A DNA stretch of 35,323 nucleotides from a virus. The stretch lies in IMG/VR virus record IMGVR_UViG_3300042945_001366, positions 1-35,323 of that record; one strand, given 5' to 3'. Both the position numbers and the translations under genes were made by a program. The notes beneath the pieces are model-generated. The model was not told where the DNA came from and ran no database searches. It saw only the letters and a list, made by a program, of their open reading frames with translations. This document shows positions 2,018-35,323 of this stretch, piece by piece. Within the stretch, counting starts at the first letter, position 1. Every line of letters begins with the position of its first letter.

Positions 2018-5000
2018 TTATCTATCAGAAATGCGATAAGTTGATTTAAGATTATGTAGTATAAACCTGTTATTCAGTATGTTATTGTACTCCATATCAA
2101 CAACCAAGTATTTATCTCTCATTCTATCACCAAACAATGTTTTAGTTAATATAGTAGGATCAAATATAGATTTAGTGTTGATATTGTTTGTATCATAATT
2201 AACCTTATTTCTAGGTAATTGCATATTGTAACCTTGCTCAGATTTCCTTAAAGTAGGATTAGGAAATGTAGTACTTAATGTTACCCAGTCAGTATTCTGA
2301 TATTCATTATAAGCTCTTATCTTAGTGATTGTATTGTTAAGGTAAGGTATATCATCAGAATCTCCTAGATAATCGTTTATAACGTCTTTAAATAGCAAAT
2401 TATCCTTAATTGATTCACTTATCCAAGATAGGTTATCAAATACTTTAGTATATATTGGATTTTCATTAATATTAACTTTTAAAGTAGATGGATAAATATT
2501 GCCGTAAAACTTACAATAATCTCCTACATTGTGCAAATAAATTTTACTACGAACTCCTGTATCATATGAATTAATGCTATATAGTTTATTATGATTATTT
2601 AAATAAATGTATGGGGTAAAACTATAGAATGAACTAAATGCGCCTATTAAATCTGAGTAAACTATAGTATATTTTTCACTGTAATTAGGTGGTTCATCAG
2701 TTACGTAAGTATTTAAAAATGTGTAAATAAACTCATTATTAATGTAATCATAAGTTGTTAAAATACCTTTACCTATTATAGGATTATCATTAACTAGTAT
2801 ATGATCATGTAATACTTTATTTACAAAACCCCTATTACCTTTAGTATCACTTATAGGACTAACAGATTGGCCATCAAATAAGAATATCTTTTTATGCCTT
2901 GAGTCAACAAATGTAATATGTGTATTTGACCTATTAACTGACCATTGGTGTTTACTACCAGAGTCTATAGAATAATATACGTGTTTTTGTATTACTTCAC
3001 CTGTACCTATACCAATAGATTGTAAGTTTTGTGTAGTAACAGTTTCATAAGGGTTAACTATTAACAATCCTATTGCTCTATCTTGTACAAAGTACATATT
3101 GTTTTTAAGTATTTGTAAAGCATTTATAGGGCCATAACTACCTTCTACATCATAGTAATTATCTACAAATACACTAGTCCAACTATCAGATGTTTCACCA
3201 TTTATCTTAACCTCAGAGTAATAAACCCTATTGTTCCATTCATTTGTTAAATTAAAGAATATAGGTCTAGGGTAATATTTTTTAAGTGTATTTTCAAATG
3301 AAAAACTTGAAACATAAATATACTGATCTGATCCTGAAGCTGCACTTCCTGAATCATTATCTAAATCAGAGTTAACATGCAGTCCATCTCTTAAATCAAC
3401 ATTTTTATAAGATTGGTGTGGGAAATACCAAGTTTGTGAATGTTTTTCAGGAGGAGTTACTTGAGTTCCTCCCCAATTTTTAATACATTTTTGAGCATCT
3501 AATATTCCATGAAATACATCACCGCCAAATACTTTTATTTCATAAGTTCCATTTTCAGCAACAGGATAATATGCACCAGTAGGTATATATTCTCTATTAG
3601 CTCTTCTTGTATAGGTTCTACCGCCATATTGAGTTTTTAAAACACGAGGTTTAAAATGTATACCTAGTAATTTAGAATTACCTTGTACTGCTGCTGTTGA
3701 GCAAACTCCAGCAAATGTATAATTAGTCCAGTTAAATGAAGATCCTTTTAATCCAACAATAACTGTTGGTGATCCATTTGAATACCATCCTGATCCTCCA
3801 CTAGGATCCTGATCTCTATTATTATAAATAGCACCACCTACTGATGATAAAGCTGGACTGCTTGATCCTTGAGCTACATAAAAACCTTCTTTTATAGTGT
3901 GAATATAAGGTGCTCCAAAATATGATGTGTTGTAAAAAAAGCCATAACCTGAAGATATAGGTAAATTGTAGTATTTTTTTATGTAATATTTTTCAGCAGG
4001 ATTTGCTATACTAAAAAGACTTGGATTAATAGCACTATCTAATACTTTTTCATAAACTTCAGTTAAAATCATTTGATCATCTTCTTCAAAATCATCATTT
4101 GAATTATCTACAAGTGACTCCATTGAGTGATAGCATATTAAATCTTTACTAGCATATCCATTACTTGCAGGAAGCACAATTGGATCACAAGAATCTAAAT
4201 TTAAAGCTGATGGAGTAGTATAATGACTATAAGGCATATAATAATTACTATCTGCTACACCTGTAGCAACTTGTGTAATTAAACCATGAGATTTAATAGT
4301 TCTGTCAGCTTGAGTTCTTAAACATCTAACTATTTCATAACCAGATATAATATTAGAAACTTCTTTAGGTATGTTAATTTCAAAGTTAATATAAGGAACT
4401 ACAAGATATGCACTTTCATCTGAAGTAGTAGTATCATAAAACATGCTTCTAAAATCAGGACATTGTGCACCTTGTTCAGTTTCATCACGTAATGCTGGAT
4501 CAGCCGTATCTGAATAGTCAGGAAATTTAATATCTCCTATCCATTTAACAAATGAAGTTTCTCCAGTACGTGATTTAAACACTATACCAAAACTATATAT
4601 TTCATTATGTTGATATGATCTAAATGCTCCTGATAGATATTCAAGAGCCATAGTATTTAAACTATTATTTTGCTTGTATCTTTGATTAGGAGCTCCATTA
4701 AAAAATGTAGGATCTAAAAATGAACCATTTGATAAACCTGCAGCTTTTCTATAACCATTGGGATATAACTGACCACTACCAGGATTATCTCTTGCAGTAC
4801 CCTCTTGAGTACTTGTGCCATTTACAGGCCACTCAGGAAATGCATCAGCTCTTAATAATAAATTACCAAATGAATAACTTATATTAGGACCTGAACCACC
4901 TACAACAGAACTAAGTCTTTTGTACTTCATTGTGAAGTCAAAGTTAGGATCTTCAGTAGTACTCATACCTAAGTTAATTAAAGGTATAAGGTCAGCATCT

Positions 5001-6568
5001 TGTGGTATATTTGCGTAATCATTTACAGTTGATATAGTATAAGGTTGAGGAACTGTGTCACCTTCGTATTGCAAAACATCAAAATCATCTTGATTTTGTA
5101 TAAACCTATAAGTTCTAGTATCGTATGCGTCAAGTATTGTATCTATATCACTTCTAACATTTCCAAAGAATAGTCTATTATCTTTTTGTTCAATAGTTTT
5201 ACAGTGACTAAATAATACATTTTCAATAAGCAATTCGTCAACAGTAATTTCTTCATTAGTATTAGGATCATTAACCCATGTAGTTAATATAGTTGAATTA
5301 CCATTTATTACTTGTGTATCAAATTTGTAAACATAAAATAAATTTATATTTGCTACATCTCTAGTAATTATAACAAACTCTATATTATCATAATCTGTGT
5401 CAACTCCTTGCACTTCAAATCTAAGAGCTTTATTAACTCCACCAGGAACACCTGTTGCTGCAATACTACTAAAGTTATTTAAAAACTTTGTAAAGTTTGA
5501 AGTCTTTTGAGGAATAGGTGCAATTATATTTGATAAACTTGAATAGTTTGTTATAGCACCATTATTCTTTGTTAACCTATAAGCGCATTGATAAGTAGCA
5601 GTATCTGATATATTATTAACAGCGCCATTGTCTATAACTTCATTTAATACCGGAACTGACATATTAGTTAATGGACGTAAATTTGTCAAATCAACATTTA
5701 ATGCCATTAAGTTAGGATCTTTTACATTCACTGTTCTTACAGGATTATAAAAGTCTGTCCAATAAATACGTTGTAAATTATTTAATTCATATCTGCCTAT
5801 TGCAGCAGATGTAGGTATAGGATGATTTATTGTAAAGTTTAAATAGTTGTTGTACAGCAAATATACTGTAGTAGTTTTAAGTAATTCATCATAAACTAAT
5901 TCCCATATTTGACCTATTTTATTAGTGTTTGTTTTGTGACATGTAAATATGTAAATATTTTCATTAATAAAAGTAGATCCTATTACTACTAATGGATCTG
6001 ATAAACTTACACTTGGAACAAAAGGTGTATTAGCAACACTTGTTAAATTACCATCAGCATCTACATAATCTATTCCTGAAGTTCCACTTACTTGAGTAAT
6101 AGTAACTACTGGTTCAGTTGATAAATCTCCACCGCATCCTTTGTATTCAGGTTGCTGATATATTACAATGTAATCAGAATTGTATGCTAATGCAAATGCA
6201 GCAGTTCCTGTTGATGTACCATAACAATTAGGTAAAGAACTTATTAACCCAACAAAAGAATTTATATTAGTGTTTTCATTAATAAGAATATTTGGTGTAG
6301 TTTCTCCATTTACAGTAATTGTAACAACTCCTGGTAAGAAGTTATTATCTACATCATATTCCTTTCTTATAGCCAACTTATAAACACTTCTTATTACAGG
6401 AAAACTTATTTGGCATTCATTCCCTTTAATATTTACTAAGGATGCATTAGAACTACCTAATTCAGTTACAGGTCTAAAATTTAAAGCTTTTACGTACTGA
6501 TCCTTAGCCTGATATAATTTAGATATATCAGAATTCATTCCGTTTTGAAAAGTATTATTACTATCCAT
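2018..6568 (-). CDS. Tail muzzle/stabilisation protein, crAss-like
   Basis: This 1516-residue protein is the largest in the window. Its opening (FQNGMN at 7-12, then DISKLYQAKDQYVKALNFR and a SLVNIKGNE segment near residues 40-55) resembles the long tail or 'stabilisation' proteins of crAss-like phages that form the distal tail muzzle. The rest is rich in Asn, Tyr, Ser and Thr with little helix, as expected for a beta-rich virion protein; there is no signal peptide or membrane segment. Its ATG overlaps the stop of the preceding ring-protein gene by one base (TAATG), implying translational coupling with the connector proteins. The length fits muzzle proteins (about 1400-1500 residues). Assignment rests on length, N-terminus and gene order. 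Confidence 0.7.
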   Translation of the reverse strand: MDSNNTFQNGMNSDISKLYQAKDQYVKALNFRPVTELGSSNASLVNIKGNECQISFPVIRSVYKLAIRKEYDVDNNFLPGVVTITVNGETTPNILINENTNINSFVGLISSLPNCYGTSTGTAAFALAYNSDYIVIYQQPEYKGCGGDLSTEPVVTITQVSGTSGIDYVDADGNLTSVANTPFVPSVSLSDPLVVIGSTFINENIYIFTCHKTNTNKIGQIWELVYDELLKTTTVYLLYNNYLNFTINHPIPTSAAIGRYELNNLQRIYWTDFYNPVRTVNVKDPNLMALNVDLTNLRPLTNMSVPVLNEVIDNGAVNNISDTATYQCAYRLTKNNGAITNYSSLSNIIAPIPQKTSNFTKFLNNFSSIAATGVPGGVNKALRFEVQGVDTDYDNIEFVIITRDVANINLFYVYKFDTQVINGNSTILTTWVNDPNTNEEITVDELLIENVLFSHCKTIEQKDNRLFFGNVRSDIDTILDAYDTRTYRFIQNQDDFDVLQYEGDTVPQPYTISTVNDYANIPQDADLIPLINLGMSTTEDPNFDFTMKYKRLSSVVGGSGPNISYSFGNLLLRADAFPEWPVNGTSTQEGTARDNPGSGQLYPNGYRKAAGLSNGSFLDPTFFNGAPNQRYKQNNSLNTMALEYLSGAFRSYQHNEIYSFGIVFKSRTGETSFVKWIGDIKFPDYSDTADPALRDETEQGAQCPDFRSMFYDTTTSDESAYLVVPYINFEINIPKEVSNIISGYEIVRCLRTQADRTIKSHGLITQVATGVADSNYYMPYSHYTTPSALNLDSCDPIVLPASNGYASKDLICYHSMESLVDNSNDDFEEDDQMILTEVYEKVLDSAINPSLFSIANPAEKYYIKKYYNLPISSGYGFFYNTSYFGAPYIHTIKEGFYVAQGSSSPALSSVGGAIYNNRDQDPSGGSGWYSNGSPTVIVGLKGSSFNWTNYTFAGVCSTAAVQGNSKLLGIHFKPRVLKTQYGGRTYTRRANREYIPTGAYYPVAENGTYEIKVFGGDVFHGILDAQKCIKNWGGTQVTPPEKHSQTWYFPHQSYKNVDLRDGLHVNSDLDNDSGSAASGSDQYIYVSSFSFENTLKKYYPRPIFFNLTNEWNNRVYYSEVKINGETSDSWTSVFVDNYYDVEGSYGPINALQILKNNMYFVQDRAIGLLIVNPYETVTTQNLQSIGIGTGEVIQKHVYYSIDSGSKHQWSVNRSNTHITFVDSRHKKIFLFDGQSVSPISDTKGNRGFVNKVLHDHILVNDNPIIGKGILTTYDYINNEFIYTFLNTYVTDEPPNYSEKYTIVYSDLIGAFSSFYSFTPYIYLNNHNKLYSINSYDTGVRSKIYLHNVGDYCKFYGNIYPSTLKVNINENPIYTKVFDNLSWISESIKDNLLFKDVINDYLGDSDDIPYLNNTITKIRAYNEYQNTDWVTLSTTFPNPTLRKSEQGYNMQLPRNKVNYDTNNINTKSIFDPTILTKTLFGDRMRDKYLVVDMEYNNILNNRFILHNLKSTYRISDR

Positions 6569-7287
6569 TAGTGACGTTTTAAATTCTCTACGTTATTAAT
6601 ATTCCTAAAGTTTGTAGTGTAAGCGTTTTGACTAGGTATCAACCTAACCATAACATTCTTCAAGCTGTTTAATTGTGCAAGATTTGGCATATTTGCAGAT
6701 CCTTTAGCAGCTGCTACGTACCATAACCATTCTTGTTCAGACTTTTGCATAACTTTATCAGCAGTATTTCCTTTACGCCAATCTCTGTAATCAATCATAT
6801 ATGTTACATATGATGAACAGGCTTTCATGAAATGAACATCATCTGGTATTAAAGGATAACCTTCATCATCAACTGGTACACCTAAATATGATATACAAAT
6901 GTAATCTTGTTGCCTTATTTGAGATTCAGTTATATCAGTTATAATATAACTATTATTAATATAGAATTTATTTTCAGTACAGCATCTTGGCAATATATTA
7001 GTTTCACATCCAAATTCAGGAATTTGACTAGCATTTGCCCAAGATAATACTCCGTTAATATAAGATATTGTTATTAACTTATAGAAATTAGCTGGTAATT
7101 TAACTTTACCATCAACGATAGGTAAGTTAGTAGATATTTCATCATACTGATAAAACGTACCTATTAATTCTAAGGCTTCAGCAATCCACTCAATTACATG
7201 AGATTCATTAATCTCAGTTGTTAGACCTAAATCCCTATATAGTTTAGCCATTACAGCCTTACTACTTACATATCCATTTATTGCCAT
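6568..7287 (-). CDS. Tail ring / head-tail connector protein
   Basis: 239 residues. A helical N-terminus (VSSKAVMAKLYRDLGLT, then HVIEWIAEALELIGTFYQY) leads into a beta segment with a 'KLPANFYKLITI' stretch, the pattern of short-tailed phage ring or tail-tubular-A-like proteins of crAss-like phages. It is coupled to its neighbours on both sides by one-base overlaps. It should form part of the ring stack joining portal to muzzle. A second ring-like protein (7729-8415) lies two genes upstream with a related layout (helical N-terminus, then 'WILPINCLDLIEV'). Which corresponds to which ring in crAss001-type virions cannot be decided by eye. Confidence 0.6.
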   Translation of the reverse strand: MAINGYVSSKAVMAKLYRDLGLTTEINESHVIEWIAEALELIGTFYQYDEISTNLPIVDGKVKLPANFYKLITISYINGVLSWANASQIPEFGCETNILPRCCTENKFYINNSYIITDITESQIRQQDYICISYLGVPVDDEGYPLIPDDVHFMKACSSYVTYMIDYRDWRKGNTADKVMQKSEQEWLWYVAAAKGSANMPNLAQLNSLKNVMVRLIPSQNAYTTNFRNINNVENLKRH

Positions 7288-7724
7288 TAATTATAAAAAT
7301 CTAATTGTTTATTATTTACAGCATCAGCTATTAATCTTGATGCAGTTCTACAAGGTTTAAAACTATAGTATCTTTTACCTTTTACTCCGCAGTGAACTTT
7401 ACTCCATTTCCATTTATAACCATACATTGAACCATGATATATAATCATATTCTGTTCTTTACTAAGCTTATAATTAACCCTCCAATTCCTTTTATTATCC
7501 TCAGTAAATGTATTTTGAAACTTATGTATAAATAACTTACCTAATTTAAAAGGTAAAGTTAATGTTTCACTGTTGTAAATTATCTTAGTCCTAACTTCTA
7601 AATTAAACTCTTTTAGAATTTTAGAATAAGTTTTGTAATCTACATAACTCCTATTCTTTTTTATAGCAGTTTCTTTATAATATTTGTAAAAATCTCTAAG
7701 TCCTATATCCTTAGTGTAACCCAT
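7287..7724 (-). CDS. Small basic tail-module protein, conserved crAss-like type
   Basis: 145 residues, Lys/Tyr/Trp-rich, with an N-terminal 'DFYKYYKE' and a central 'LTLPFKLGKLFIHKF' followed by aromatic-basic segments (GYKWKWSKV, KRYYSFKPCR). I associate this pattern with a small protein found between the ring-protein genes of crAss-like phages; its role is unknown to me. It has no membrane segment and no enzymatic motif. It lies 4 bases after one ring-protein gene and overlaps the next by one base, so it is probably made with the tail connector proteins and could be a tail assembly factor. Confidence 0.5.
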   Translation of the reverse strand: MGYTKDIGLRDFYKYYKETAIKKNRSYVDYKTYSKILKEFNLEVRTKIIYNSETLTLPFKLGKLFIHKFQNTFTEDNKRNWRVNYKLSKEQNMIIYHGSMYGYKWKWSKVHCGVKGKRYYSFKPCRTASRLIADAVNNKQLDFYN

Positions 7725-22799: not shown

Positions 22800-23336
22800 T
22801 TACCACTCTTTCATTTCATTATCTAATAAACGTAAAGCAACTTTATCTTCTCCAAATGCATTTAATTGATCTACCCAATTTTGCATTTTATCATGCTCCT
22901 CAACTTGCTCCTTTAAAAATCTTAACGCTAATTCATAAAGCATATGATCACCTTTTTTCATAGCATCACTTGCTAAATCTTTACATTGTTTAGTAACAGT
23001 TATTTCATGGTCATATGACATCTTAATAATCTGTGGTAAACCTGTATAAGTTTGACTAGGTGCTTTTAAAGCAGGAGTTGCAGGTTGTACACCCATTGCT
23101 AATAAATATTCTCTTGACCAATCTGAATGAACTAATTCTTCATTTGAATATTTTTTCCATAGTGCAGCAGCACCAACATATCCATTATTGTTAAGCCACA
23201 TACTCATTGATAAGTATATACGTGAAGAATATTCTTCTTGTTCAATCCTGTAGTTTAAATAATCTACACATTCAGTTGAAAGTAGAATATTCTTACCTGC
23301 AGTTGAAGTTTTAAATTTTGCTATATCTAAAGCCAT
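22800..23336 (-). CDS. Ferritin (FtnA-like) encoded by the phage
   Basis: 178 residues, the length of a full bacterial ferritin. The four-helix pattern has candidate ferroxidase residues at the expected spacing: Glu34/Glu35 in 'IEQEEYSSRIYLSMSMW', Glu67 and His70 in 'NEELVHSDW', Glu111 in 'SYDHEITVTK', and Gln144/Glu147 in 'LKEQVEEHDKMQNWVDQL'. It would oxidise Fe(II) and store iron as a 24-mer. It lies 2 bases after a Dps-like gene and just before a small basic protein and GroES, within the capsid operon, so it is expressed with structural genes. Whether it is packaged or acts in the infected cell is unknown. Confidence 0.85.
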   Translation of the reverse strand: MALDIAKFKTSTAGKNILLSTECVDYLNYRIEQEEYSSRIYLSMSMWLNNNGYVGAAALWKKYSNEELVHSDWSREYLLAMGVQPATPALKAPSQTYTGLPQIIKMSYDHEITVTKQCKDLASDAMKKGDHMLYELALRFLKEQVEEHDKMQNWVDQLNAFGEDKVALRLLDNEMKEW

Positions 23337-31579: not shown

Positions 31580-31639
31580 ACATATAATATTATATCTACC
31601 AAATTTATTATATAACAACCCTTATTATCTATAAATAAG

Positions 31640-31960
31640 AATCCCCTTTCAACCTGTTCGGCATCTTGAGTTAATATTACTATCAACCGATTTTAACCTT
31701 TGTAATTTCAATAGATCAGTATTGAGCCCTTGTAGTTACCTACAATCTGGTTACTTGATTCCTGTTAATTCAGGGGGATACTTTATACCCATTGTACCAG
31801 CTATCTATATTCCTTACATCAAAGGTCTGTTTCTAAGCTATAGGGGACAACTTCATTCATATATCTGAACTATTAACCCTACGTCTGATCCCTTACTTCT
31901 TTATACCTCAGGGATGATACAGCAAGTTACTGTGCTTATAATACTAATATACAATATTTT
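31640..31960 (-). ncRNA. Candidate structured RNA in the minus-strand module
   Basis: This is a gene-free stretch (the whole gap is 31568-32002), less AT-rich than its flanks, with nested pairings. ACCTTTG and CAAAGGT (31696-31702 and 31820-31826) close a multibranch loop containing hairpins 31708-31713/31720-31725 and 31730-31735/31740-31745, and a stem 31747-31754/31794-31800 that itself holds two hairpins (31761-31774 and 31775-31790). Outside, 31642-31646 can pair with 31843-31847, and there are short stems at 31888-31915 and 31919-31933. The 31736-31739 loop reads GTAA on the minus strand, a GNRA tetraloop, which supports minus-strand transcription. The family is not recognised; it could be an mRNA leader or an independent RNA. 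Confidence 0.5.
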
Positions 31961-32002
31961 AATGATATATCCTAGTAAAAAGAGATAATATATGTTATTA
32001 TA

Positions 32003-32399: not shown

Positions 32400-32430
32400 A
32401 CTATTTTTTTAATACCAAAATTTTTTTTGT

Positions 32431-32495
32431 AAAATTTTTTAAAATTTTTTGTGTGTATTATTTTGTGAAAAATTTTTTGTGTATATTTTTTCGTG
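32431..32495. repeat. Tandem AT-rich repeat in the divergent spacer
   Basis: A short AAAATTTTTT unit at 32431-32440 is followed by two imperfect copies of a 27/28-base unit (32441-32467 and 32468-32495), each AAAA(A)TTTTTT then GTGTGTAT or GTGTATAT and ending in TTTT(T)GTG/CGTG. Homopolymer-rich, bendable and easily melted DNA between two diverging modules could serve as promoter DNA or a replication origin. Confidence 0.6.
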
Positions 32496-32501
32496 AGCCA
32501 C

Positions 32502-32533
32502 CCCCAACTCTTAGCCCCTACTAAGTTTTGGGG
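32502..32533. other. Hairpin in the divergent spacer
   Basis: CCCCAA and CTTAG (32502-32514) pair with CTAAG and TTGGGG (32521-32533), interrupted by a 2x2 internal loop and capped by CCCCTA. It stands out as GC-rich in AT-rich surroundings. In the plus transcript it would sit about 50 bases before the first start codon; in the minus direction it is upstream of the promoter box. Confidence 0.5.
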
Positions 32534-32581
32534 AAAAAAGGTTTTTCTCTGCAAATCAATTAACAACTAAAAACAAAAATT

Positions 32582-32848
32582 ATGAAAAATTTTAAAGTTA
32601 TCCAAAGTAACCCTAATTCAAAAGGTGGGTTTGTTACTAAAATGCAATGTGAAACTATTGTAGGAGATGCAATCTTCGGCGACAAGGTTAGCACATTGAC
32701 ATACTATATTAGTGGTACTAAACAAGTACCTGTTGATAGTATGATACCTGAAAGTGCGTTGTTCCCAAAGTACAAAGTTGTGGAGCACCCTATGGTTAAC
32801 CCATCTACAGGGGAAGAGTTTATGGGCAAGTGGTTACATGTTGCCTAA
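32582..32848 (+). CDS. First gene of the plus-strand module, hypothetical
   Basis: 88 residues. 'MKNFKVIQSNPNSKGGFVTKMQ' and 'DKVSTLTYYISGTKQVPVDS', then 'YKVVEHPMVNPSTGEEFMGKWLHV', suggest a compact beta-rich fold of the OB or small-barrel kind; nothing identifies a function. The leader TTAACAACTAAAA before ATG has no Shine-Dalgarno, and similar leaders precede most genes of this module. A near-perfect intrinsic terminator follows seven bases after the stop, so it is transcribed alone, suggesting high or separately controlled expression. Confidence 0.6.
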   Translation: MKNFKVIQSNPNSKGGFVTKMQCETIVGDAIFGDKVSTLTYYISGTKQVPVDSMIPESALFPKYKVVEHPMVNPSTGEEFMGKWLHVA

Positions 32849-32854
32849 TAATAC

Positions 32855-32890
32855 GGTATTACTGCAGAAATGCAGTAGTACCCTTTTTAT
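32855..32890 (+). terminator. Intrinsic terminator after the 88-residue gene
   Basis: GGTATTACTGCA pairs with TGCAGTAGTACC (12 bp, one wobble pair) across a GAAA tetraloop and is followed by CTTTTTATT. It lies 6 bases after the stop codon. Confidence 0.92.
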
Positions 32891-32931
32891 TATTTAAATT
32901 TCTTATTATTAATCATTTTAAATTTCAAATT

Positions 32932-33021
32932 ATGTTATTAGATTTCCTATCAGCTTTAGTATCAATCGCCCTATTGATAAGCTTTTTAAGGTTAGTATCT
33001 CATAAAGATGCGTGGTACTAA
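32932..33021 (+). CDS. 29-residue membrane peptide
   Basis: ATG at 32932 to TAA at 33021. The peptide is MLLDFLSALVSIALLISFLR in its first 20 residues, one hydrophobic helix, then a short polar end (LVSHKDAWY). A longer frame from 32830 runs through the terminator and is not credible, so the internal ATG with an A/T-rich leader is preferred. A terminator-like hairpin follows. A small membrane peptide in an early phage module might modify the host membrane; the function is unknown. Confidence 0.45.
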   Translation: MLLDFLSALVSIALLISFLRLVSHKDAWY

Positions 33022-33035
33022 TGGTTTTAAGGGTT

Positions 33036-33098
33036 AAATGGCTTGGAAGTGAGTGGTAGTGGGATGCACATCCATCCACTCTATTTTCAACCATTTTT
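33036..33098 (+). terminator. Extended hairpin, probable terminator
   Basis: An outer stem AAATGG(C)TTG with CAACCATTT (33036-33045 and 33088-33096) encloses GAGTGG/CCACTC (33051-33056 and 33076-33081) and GGAT/ATCC around GCAC. The stem ends in TTTTT, so a terminator is likely, although the inner loops are large. Confidence 0.6.
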
Positions 33099-33198
33099 AG
33101 AATCATTCAAATTTGCTATTGCTGTAAATATATATAGCCATTAGTAAATATTAACATATAAAAATATAAATTATTAACTAGTTTTAAAACTTAAAAAC

Positions 33199-33399
33199 AT
33201 GAACAAACAACTATTGTTACAAATGCTTGAATTAGCATATAGTAATCAACAGTCTAAAGCTATAAATGAATTATGTTTACAAATAGCTGTTGATCCTGAA
33301 TTAGATGACACTATAAATATTGTTGATTTTTCTAATGAATTATATTCAGTTAGAAGTATTAGATTGATTAAACAATGTTTTAATTTCAAGCTGTTATAA
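33199..33399 (+). CDS. Small hypothetical protein before the large RNA-like region
   Basis: 66 residues, helical and Leu/Gln-rich ('MNKQLLLQMLELAYSNQQSK', then 'INELCLQIAVDPELDD' and 'LYSVRSIRLIKQCFNFKLL'). The leader AACTTAAAAAC before ATG follows the plus-module pattern. The stop codon sits inside the first stem of the structured region (33394-33417). The function is not recognised. Confidence 0.5.
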   Translation: MNKQLLLQMLELAYSNQQSKAINELCLQIAVDPELDDTINIVDFSNELYSVRSIRLIKQCFNFKLL

Positions 33400-34160
33400 C
33401 TTATGCATGAGTTATAATAATACCAATAGAAGTATTGGTTTAGCAAATTAAAATTATGTGCAACTTACACAACAGTTATATTGGTAATATGGAGTAATCC
33501 ACAGATTAAACAAACTCATTGTAGTTTGCATTGTATAAGTTACAAGACATTAACTTAGTGGTAATATAACTACCACGGCAACAAAGTGCTAAGCATCACT
33601 ATTGTAAAAACTGCTTATTTTACAGAGTAATCTGTTGTATTATTTTACACATTCTCATAGCATAAGGAATGATAAGTGAGTGCAGTATATCAGAACCTCA
33701 GCAACAATGGTGTTGTAAAGTAAACTCTGATGATACTAATAGCTCTACCTTGTGCTATGAGATAACATACTTATAGGTTGTCCATTAACTTGGCTTAGCA
33801 TGGAACCTACGAACAGGTGTAAGGCCTGTATTTTTATTAACCATATTACCTATAGGGTTTGAAATCAAGTAATTGATTATAGGTAAGGTGTAAGAAACCT
33901 AAATCTAGAATAAACAGATATAATTCCCAAATGAAACTGTTTATTTGTTAATTTAAACTATGTAATATATGAAAATCAACTTTTAAGTTCAGCCGCTTAA
34001 AGGGTAAAAGTTATGGGGAGTCTTTGACTTCCCGTATAAAAAGACAGACGTTTAATGGCTGATAAACGTGATTAACCTACTTGTTGAAATACAAGATTAA
34101 GTTGCACTTGAATAAGGTTGCTAGGTATGCTGTCCACCGAATCCAAAGACTTCCCTTTAA
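33394..34160 (+). ncRNA. Candidate large ornate non-coding RNA
   Basis: About 800 bases without a credible gene but dense with stems on one strand. Main stems: 33394-33401/33410-33417; 33422-33428/33433-33439; 33462-33470/33533-33541, enclosing hairpins at 33478-33490, 33490-33501 and 33511-33528; 33558-33563/33571-33576; 33603-33609/33618-33624; a 15-bp helix 33653-33667/33748-33762 enclosing 33684-33694/33726-33737 and 33702-33706/33711-33715; 33774-33784/33801-33809; 33846-33854/33878-33886 with an inner 33864-33877 hairpin; 33909-33917/33937-33945; 33978-33985/34005-34012; 34015-34022/34026-34033; and 34043-34047/34130-34134 enclosing three more stems. Loops at 33494-33497 and 33869-33872 are GTAA (GNRA) on the plus strand. 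Size is in the GOLLD/ROOL range, but I cannot match it to either. Confidence 0.65.
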
Positions 34161-34197
34161 TTAAATTAGAAATTATTAACAATTAAAAAATAAAACC

Positions 34198-34359
34198 ATG
34201 ACAAACGAAGAATTATTATTGCAATTAAACAATGAATTACAATTAGCTATTGAAGAATTAAATGATTGCGTTGAATGTAACCCTGATTGGGAAAAGATGC
34301 AAATGGAATTAATTAGTAGCATTGAACAAGAAATTAACGCTTTAAATGAAGAACTATGA
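34198..34359 (+). CDS. 53-residue acidic helical protein
   Basis: ATG at 34198, TGA ending at 34359. The protein is almost entirely helical and acidic ('MTNEELLLQLNNELQLAIEE', then 'CVECNPDWEKMQMELISSIE', then 'QEINALNEEL'), a probable coiled-coil dimer with a CVEC pair in the middle. The leader AATTAAAAAATAAAACC matches the A-rich pattern of the module. The ATG of the next gene overlaps its stop (ATGA). The function is unknown. Confidence 0.55.
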   Translation: MTNEELLLQLNNELQLAIEELNDCVECNPDWEKMQMELISSIEQEINALNEEL

Positions 34360-34442
34360 CTGATTATGAGAAATTATACTATGAAATGGTTCAATCTTAT
34401 TTAGCTAATAATGCTTGGCTTTACACATTTATTTACAATTAA
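34356..34442 (+). CDS. 28-residue peptide, coupled by ATGA overlap
   Basis: ATG at 34356, TAA ending at 34442, sharing ATGA with the previous gene, so it is probably translated by reinitiation. The peptide is MTDYEKLYYEMVQSYLANNA followed by WLYTFIYN: aromatic-rich and amphipathic. Nothing identifies a function. Confidence 0.45.
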   Translation: MTDYEKLYYEMVQSYLANNAWLYTFIYN

Positions 34443-34454
34443 AAACTAAAAAAC

Positions 34455-34679
34455 ATGAAAACAACAAAAACAATTATCGTATTTATAGTAGCTTATATGT
34501 TACTTTACTTATTATTATCATCAATTGGTTGTATATTCTTTAATAAAGATTTACAACATTATAGTTATTCAGAATGCATTGGTAACACAATGTGGTTTAT
34601 GATGTATAACTTATTTATAGGTTGGTGGGTAGCAGGTATAGTAGCAAATGATTATTATGAAACAATTAACAAACATTAA
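34455..34679 (+). CDS. Small two-helix membrane protein
   Basis: 74 residues with two hydrophobic segments (about 7-27, with IIVFIVAYMLLYLLLSSIGC; and about 46-65, with MWFMMYNLFIGWWVAGIV) separated by a polar loop with 'KDLQHYSYSECIG'. The leader ACAATTAAAAACTAAAAAAC follows the module pattern. It could alter the host membrane or exclude other phages; that is a guess from size and topology. No lipobox. Confidence 0.55.
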   Translation: MKTTKTIIVFIVAYMLLYLLLSSIGCIFFNKDLQHYSYSECIGNTMWFMMYNLFIGWWVAGIVANDYYETINKH

Positions 34680-34693
34680 AAACAATTAAAACA

Positions 34694-34789
34694 ATGAAAA
34701 CATTATCAACAGATTTAAAAAAAATATTATTAGCTACAAGTTTACTTGTAACAATAGTAGTAATTGAATTAATTTCAGCTTATTATTAA
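34694..34789 (+). CDS. 31-residue membrane peptide
   Basis: ATG at 34694, TAA ending at 34789. The N-terminus is basic (MKTLSTDLKK) and is followed by one hydrophobic helix (ILLATSLLVTIVVIELISAYY). The leader CATTAAAAACAATTAAAACA is A-rich and lacks a Shine-Dalgarno. It lies 14 bases after the previous membrane-protein gene, so the two may be transcribed together. Confidence 0.45.
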   Translation: MKTLSTDLKKILLATSLLVTIVVIELISAYY

Positions 34790-34807
34790 CAACTAAAACA
34801 ACAAATC

Positions 34808-34996
34808 ATGATTAAAACAACTAAAAATGGTAGACCTATTATAAATAGAACTACAAAATTACCTGTTCATACACGTAGTGTTGAACATAGTATTAAAATG
34901 CTAAAAGAAATGCTTACTATAAGCATGACAAAGAATGATGCAAAATGGGCATCAATTAAAGCTGATATCAGCTTAAAAGCATTAAAGAATATATAA
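34808..34996 (+). CDS. Small basic hypothetical protein
   Basis: 62 residues, basic ('MIKTTKNGRPIINRTTKLPV', then 'HTRSVEHSIKMLKEMLTISM', then 'TKNDAKWASIKADISLKALK'). The leader TTAACAACTAAAACAACAAATC has the module's A-rich form. There is no membrane segment; a helix of about 25-62 is likely. The pattern might be a small nucleic-acid-binding or inhibitor protein but no family is recognised. A strong hairpin follows four bases after the stop. Confidence 0.5.
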   Translation: MIKTTKNGRPIINRTTKLPVHTRSVEHSIKMLKEMLTISMTKNDAKWASIKADISLKALKNI

Positions 34997-34999
34997 TAA

Positions 35000-35037
35000 A
35001 ATAGGTTATGATACTTTAAATAGTATTGTAACCTATT
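35000..35037. terminator. Hairpin between two small genes, possible terminator
   Basis: AATAGGTTATGATACT pairs with AGTATTGTAACCTATT, 16 bp with two wobble pairs and a six-base loop. A run of T follows only on the minus strand, so on the plus strand it is more likely a processing or stability element than a good terminator. Confidence 0.5.
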
Positions 35038-35051
35038 ATAAAACACTCAAA

Positions 35052-35222
35052 ATGAATAGATTTAACAAATTCCTAATGAAACATAAGTTTATAATAGGTA
35101 TGATACCTTTTATAACTTGTCCAATAGTATTAATAAGTCATAATATATACATTCAATTACCTGTTTGTATATTACAATTGATAGTTATTATAGCTTGGAT
35201 TAGAATAGCAAAATTATCTTAA
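35052..35222 (+). CDS. 56-residue membrane protein
   Basis: ATG at 35052, TAA ending at 35222. A basic N-terminus (MNRFNKFLMKHK) is followed by two hydrophobic segments (about 13-30, with FIIGMIPFITCPIVLIS; and about 37-52, with CILQLIVIIAWIRIA). It belongs to the same class of small membrane proteins as 34455-34679. The leader CACTCAAA before ATG is A-rich. The remaining 101 bases to the window edge contain no further recognisable gene. Confidence 0.5.
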   Translation: MNRFNKFLMKHKFIIGMIPFITCPIVLISHNIYIQLPVCILQLIVIIAWIRIAKLS

Positions 35223-35323
35223 AAATATTAAATAATATGAATTCTCTATAACATATAGCATCAAATTAACCAAACCTATAATGGTGGCTTTGTATAGTTA
35301 GATTAGTATTATTTATACTCCTG

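Follow-up and report, generated by a model that had tools for sequence, protein, structure and literature searches.

Small conserved RNA domains and a variable linker in a gene-free region of crAss-like phages

GOLLD assembles into a homo-oligomeric cage and its expression rises at lysis. To our knowledge, the functions of both GOLLD and ROOL remain unknown. GOLLD is a phage-encoded RNA found near tRNAs, with a well-conserved end region and a variable linker that is able to hold genes or RNAs (PMC12286853). ROOL is likewise a phage RNA, often located near tRNA islands, and contains pseudoknots and a variable linker (PMC12286853). The original prediction, made for the window analysed here (35,323 nucleotides, positions 1 to 35,323 of IMG/VR record IMGVR_UViG_3300042945_001366), was that a gene-free region at 33394-34160 on the plus strand carries a large structured RNA resembling these two. 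The gene-free stretch is a patchwork of structured RNA, in which a 611-base piece that was recently gained or lost lies beside a small ancient fold, and the boundaries 33394-34160 do not correspond to one natural unit. The small fold, termed beta, is common to related phages and absent from RNA databases (Rfam), and may belong with a second domain, alpha, to one RNA; the literature searched contained no report of such a structured non-coding RNA from crAss-like phages.

Setting and folding of the gene-free region

The 35 kb virus contig encodes a terminase, a portal and a major head protein that match phage head and packaging families, and the best named relatives of the portal are crAss-like phages of the human gut (about 35% identity). 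The structural genes are located on the minus strand, and their block includes a ferritin-like domain protein (22800-23336, minus strand; Pfam PF00210, E 9e-23). From about 32580 onwards small genes form a plus-strand module that contains the gene-free region, which is real, as no ORF of at least 60 aa was found on either strand of 33447-34454. Stop-codon recoding is known in crAss-like phages. The longest reading frame in 33447-34160 does not exceed 48 aa under the standard code or with TAG read as Q or TGA as W, hence recoding hides no gene there and this candidate explanation was ruled out. A blastn comparison of the gene-free region with 50,697 phages returned zero matches, and promoter scans for a Bacteroidota-type pattern and for sigma-70-like sites gave neither above chance.

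Folded as a whole, the plus strand of 33394-34160 reaches -197.2 kcal/mol (z -4.8) with none of 20 shuffled sequences as good. The fold of the minus strand is at least as good (z -7.0), so folding energy cannot assign the strand; the plus strand is assigned from the G-U pairs, which become A-C on the opposite strand, and from the covariation in beta. In a sampled z-score scan most 120-nt windows of the gene-free region are not outliers, and a small number of strong and long-range helices thus carry the fold signal. The GTAA tetraloops that had been described on the plus strand are present near 33492 (GGA-GTAA-TCC), near 33625 (CAGA-GTAA-TCTG) and in beta, where the GNRA loop occupies 33819-33822.

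The suggestion that the element is undescribed is borne out by the Rfam covariance-model search, in which no family matched the region or its relatives. The GOLLD and ROOL models have no match at the gathering threshold in the window or in 14 relatives, and none at E<=10 in 32400-35323. Searches for group I and group II intron cores (Rfam) found none in the window or its relatives, and those for tmRNA with tRNA-like ends and a tag ORF (Rfam/ARAGORN) found nothing in the window. Two permissive Rfam matches in the window, sroE (E 0.096) and MIR2617, were judged to be chance.

Elsewhere in the window, a gene-free element of about 380 nt on the minus strand (31619-32002) aligns in most of 14 other crAss-like loci, poorly in L045. 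For 11 sequences RNAalifold predicts 21 pairs, of which 10 show compensatory changes, and a closing helix UCCCC/GGGGA; no Rfam match was found for the element, which is a candidate for another structured RNA, of wider conservation, near the terminase block.

A 611-bp segment that is absent from the closest relatives

A terminase search in IMG/VR yielded 53 loci, among them two close relatives, L002 (terminase 100% identical to that of the window, about 96% identity to the window) and L003 (99% and about 94%, respectively). Both align on either side of the region and skip from 33158 to 33763/33770, and this exact junction defines a 611-bp presence/absence segment (33159-33769, plus strand) that is flanked by 7-nt TAACATA repeats (33152-33158 and 33763-33769). 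The empty junction in L002 and L003 reads ..TATTAACATA|CTTATAGG.., and the window has the same flanks plus 611 bases. L003 also lacks a second length-variable segment (33837-33948, plus strand). These absences speak against a single large conserved RNA spanning 33394-34160: the 5' half, 15-bp helix included, is missing from close relatives, and beta is kept. A gain of the 611 bp in the window lineage would be the simpler reading because the more diverged L003 shares the empty junction with L002; a loss in L002 and L003 is the less simple one.

The segment contains a 66-aa ORF (33199-33399, plus strand), a 15-bp helix and most of the stems listed in the original prediction. No Pfam match was found for the ORF, which has a 72% identical relative in L076 followed by a different RNA; the L076 phage contig also carries a tmRNA gene (4689-5061, ARAGORN) with a tag ending EEVAVAA. 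The 15-bp helix is exactly as predicted (33653-33667 with 33748-33762, one G-U pair), with further helices enclosed, and closes a lineage-specific hairpin module (33653-33762, plus strand) that folds at -40.4 kcal/mol (z -6.0, 0/200 shuffles). Neither this module nor the 5' half has a homologue among the loci compared. A common ACACATTC start and an ATAACA end are suggestive of homology between the module and the Y modules of other loci described below.

Upstream of the segment, an extended hairpin (33022-33102, plus strand) is common to L002 and L003, and 33022-33165 folds with z -4.7 (0/200 shuffles) at 87-93% identity with these relatives. Downstream of beta lies a structured segment (33949-34165, plus strand) known from the window and L003 only, which is 97% identical between the two, as compared with 96% for beta and 78-94% for the small plus-strand ORFs. 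Within it GGGGAGUCUUUG is predicted to have mutually exclusive partners (34014-34035 versus 34143-34157), either in a local hairpin or with the 3' end CAAAGACUUCCC, in a switch-like manner. A scan of IMG/VR with the GGGGAGTCNTTGACTTCCC pattern returned just L003 and L055, the latter rejected as a chance match at a gene end of an unrelated phage.

The beta and alpha domains in related phages

Beta was discovered through short matches of 33763-33794 in distant loci, which revealed a conserved domain downstream of tRNAs, and a scan with GTTGTCCWTTAACTWGGYW gave 13 stretches, almost all within this phage group; a match in L066 was discarded as a chance hit. This domain of about 65 nt is the deeply conserved part of the region. 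In the window it occupies 33773-33836 on the plus strand and, as judged from an alignment of 13 distinct phage sequences, comprises a P1-P2-P3 three-way junction, a P4 hairpin with a GNRA loop and a U run. Both-side changes are found in 8 of its 15 pairs, none of 500 shuffles reaches its covariation score, and 93.8% of the alignment cells are paired, against 19.5-50.8% for slid pairings used as a control. A profile from which the window, L003 and L062 were left out detects the window (E 4e-9) and L003 (E 8.5e-10). Of the large structured RNA originally envisaged, a part is therefore truly structured with covariation in homologues, namely beta, whereas the 5' half lacks homologues and a single conserved RNA across 33394-34160 is not supported.

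P1 (33774-33779 with 33804-33809, plus strand) shows both-side changes in four of six pairs, with exchanges UA/AU/GC/GU and GC/AU/UA. P2 is a CC[A/U] UUAACU [U/A]GG hairpin (33782-33784 with 33791-33793, plus strand) in which A-U and U-A alternate (7 versus 6 sequences) beneath a nearly invariant UUAACU loop. P3 varies in size from a few nucleotides in the window, L003 and L062 to about 70 nt. P4 (33813-33835, plus strand; CAGG U[GUAA]G g CCUG then UUUUU) covaries between CG, UA and AU and has a GNRA loop in 13/13 sequences (GUAA, GUGA, GAAA, GCAA or GAGA), a bulged G and a trailing U run; a terminator scan of the window called 33813-33829 within it terminator-like. With covarying P1, P2 and P4 and the GNRA loop, the window has the beta domain by which, together with an upstream alpha, the alpha-beta family is defined; of alpha it has only the doubtful pseudoknot described below. 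Beta is present as one strong copy in 11 of 17 phage records, including all five of 86-91 kb, and none above chance was found in the other six, most of which are clear fragments. The genes adjoining beta differ between lineages, which argues against the regulation of one gene.

Alpha is about 85 nt long and consists of hairpin A with a conserved UGAUAGUU loop, an H-type pseudoknot and hairpin C. It is clear in ten relatives, with a weaker match in L005 and L048. Since MAFFT misaligned hairpin A, its arms were paired up directly, and in this arm-by-arm comparison the 7-8 bp are fully complementary in all variants. Compared in the same way, the pseudoknot stems S1 and S2 covary, L005 included, with the variants ACAG/CTGT, ACA/TGT and ACAT/ATGT as well as AGTGTT/AACACT, AGTATT/AATACT, AGCATT/AATGCT and AGTTGTT/AACAACT. 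Alpha occurs without beta in L005 and L048; conversely, the window lineage and L062 carry beta but no alpha that can be recognised. A stretch at 33108-33139 (plus strand; CAR-AUUU-GCUAU-UG-CUG-UAAA..-AUAGC-C), picked out by eye in the window, L002 and L003, might be a diverged alpha pseudoknot, an assignment of low confidence: the alpha profile did not detect it and one pair there is broken in the window. The alpha/beta region of L019 gave chance-level matches only against phages, and the three matches of a GTDB scan with the hairpin-C motif, in Megasphaera and Mucilaginibacter, were dismissed as chance, none having a full alpha domain around it.

A tRNA gene ends 3-5 nt before alpha in six phages (L016, L019, L023, L040, L057 and L064), and an acceptor/T-arm minihelix takes its place in L024, L051 and L005. 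In the minihelices upstream of alpha (L024, L026, L051, L005 and L048) a short spacer replaces the D and anticodon arms. The tRNAs of L019, L053, L040, L057 and L064 have irregular anticodon loops, to which ARAGORN assigns anticodons of 2 or 4 letters or, for Asn, ATT. L064 also contains a full-length sub-threshold tmRNA match (6973-7350; 28.8 bits, E 3.6e-9) with a possible tag ending LQAA.

Alpha lies upstream of beta on the same strand in ten phages, and the linker of 94-817 nt between them holds exchangeable hairpin modules or ORFs. The linker bears an ORF in three of the ten. Reading frames between alpha and beta are a gene in L057, a small ORF in L024/L026 and the start of an HNH-like ORF in L051. 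The 611-bp segment of the window occupies the place of this variable linker, directly before beta. Two kinds of module are recognisable among the loci. The intergenic X module, AATCTCTTAACGGTGGTCGCCTGGAGATTT, occurs once per locus in L010, L016, L019, L023, L025, L031, L040, L051 and L053. The Y module, a long stem CCTAATGCAC..GTTGTAAT / ATTACAAC..GTGCTTAGG with changing interiors, is found at most twice per locus in a subset of the X-module loci.

Possible roles and comparison with described RNAs

The best explanation, which we hold tentatively and rate just short of probable, is a new phage RNA with alpha and beta ends and a hypervariable linker, transcribed as one molecule and acting in trans. 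The conserved RNA would consist of the two small structured ends, which would form the functional core of a trans-acting, phage-encoded structural RNA as proposed for GOLLD and ROOL, and the linker would be a passenger loop in which structured modules and small genes can be inserted or exchanged. The 5' end would probably arise from tRNA 3' processing, as the RNA lies directly behind a tRNA or minihelix in most relatives, and the 3' end would probably form at the terminator-like P4 hairpin. In the window, a 611-bp insert (the 66-aa ORF and hairpin modules) would then take up the place of the linker directly upstream of beta, and the apparent large RNA would be the sum of linker insert, beta and downstream segment. 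That the two ends belong to one molecule is suggested by their order and adjacency in ten phages and by loop-loop complementarity: AGUUGG in hairpin C is complementary to the UUAACU loop of P2 in 10/10, a U-for-C change in L051 being kept as G-U, although a match is expected by chance in about 6% of loop pairs. The AGUUGG loop is absent from hairpin C of the beta-less L005. Alpha and beta also occur apart, which counts against one molecule, and P4 with its U run could be merely a terminator.

This last point leads to a credible, if not probable, alternative, that alpha and beta are separate cis-acting mRNA elements of a polycistronic early transcript, alpha serving in 5'-end protection or processing after tRNA excision and beta as a terminator or 3'-end stabiliser. 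Their separate occurrence and the position of the L062 beta about a dozen nucleotides past a stop codon speak for it, but a general terminator would not be expected as a single copy per genome, the loop and junction nucleotides of beta are more conserved than a terminator would require, and the two domains are neighbours in ten phages. It is unlikely that the locus is simply a recombination or homing hotspot, in which RNA modules such as mobile hairpins or decayed ribozymes spread as passengers alongside HNH enzymes and small genes, the large structure of the window having no RNA function. The 611-bp segment between 7-nt repeats, the NUMOD/HNH-like ORFs (read by eye) that adjoin the linker in L051 and L053, and the recurrence of stem modules within and between genomes would all fit such a hotspot, which nevertheless accounts neither for the covariation of alpha nor for the single copy of beta and finds no matching intron family in Rfam. 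A single large, ornate GOLLD/ROOL-like RNA across 33394-34160 is very improbable: strong folding, length, phage setting and the tRNA neighbourhood in relatives had favoured it, yet phages whose terminases are 99-100% identical lack half of it (L002 and L003, which largely refute it), and it has neither an Rfam match nor a homologue of its 5' half. Single-sequence folding of such loci can thus make recent insertions look like a single large conserved RNA.

The preferred reading, one RNA with conserved ends, can be set beside three described systems. The alpha-beta locus is reminiscent of tmRNA (ssrA) in combining a tRNA-like part, a pseudoknot and an ORF at a single locus, and differs in having no terminal tRNA-like domain formed by 5'-3' pairing and no tag reading frame. 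With ROOL it shares the phage origin, the tRNA neighbourhood, pseudoknots and a variable linker, whereas the ROOL core is much larger, the alpha-beta linker can contain ORFs and cmscan gives no match. Like GOLLD it is phage-encoded and structured, with a tRNA neighbourhood, a conserved end and a variable linker with genes; in contrast, the conserved 3' region of GOLLD spans several hundred nucleotides and the alpha-beta RNA only about 85 plus 65 nt (beta without P3). The originally noted likeness to GOLLD and ROOL thus persists in relatives as a loose architecture of conserved ends, variable linker and neighbouring tRNA and does not extend to an Rfam match. With its small covarying core, present once per genome, and a linker that is freely exchanged, the RNA is tractable for testing. 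It is possible, though doubtful, that environmental crAss-like phages encode a bipartite RNA whose ends dock by loop-loop pairing around a swap-in linker and which is cut free from a precursor containing a tRNA or minihelix; this would add a third phage RNA architecture to those of GOLLD and ROOL.
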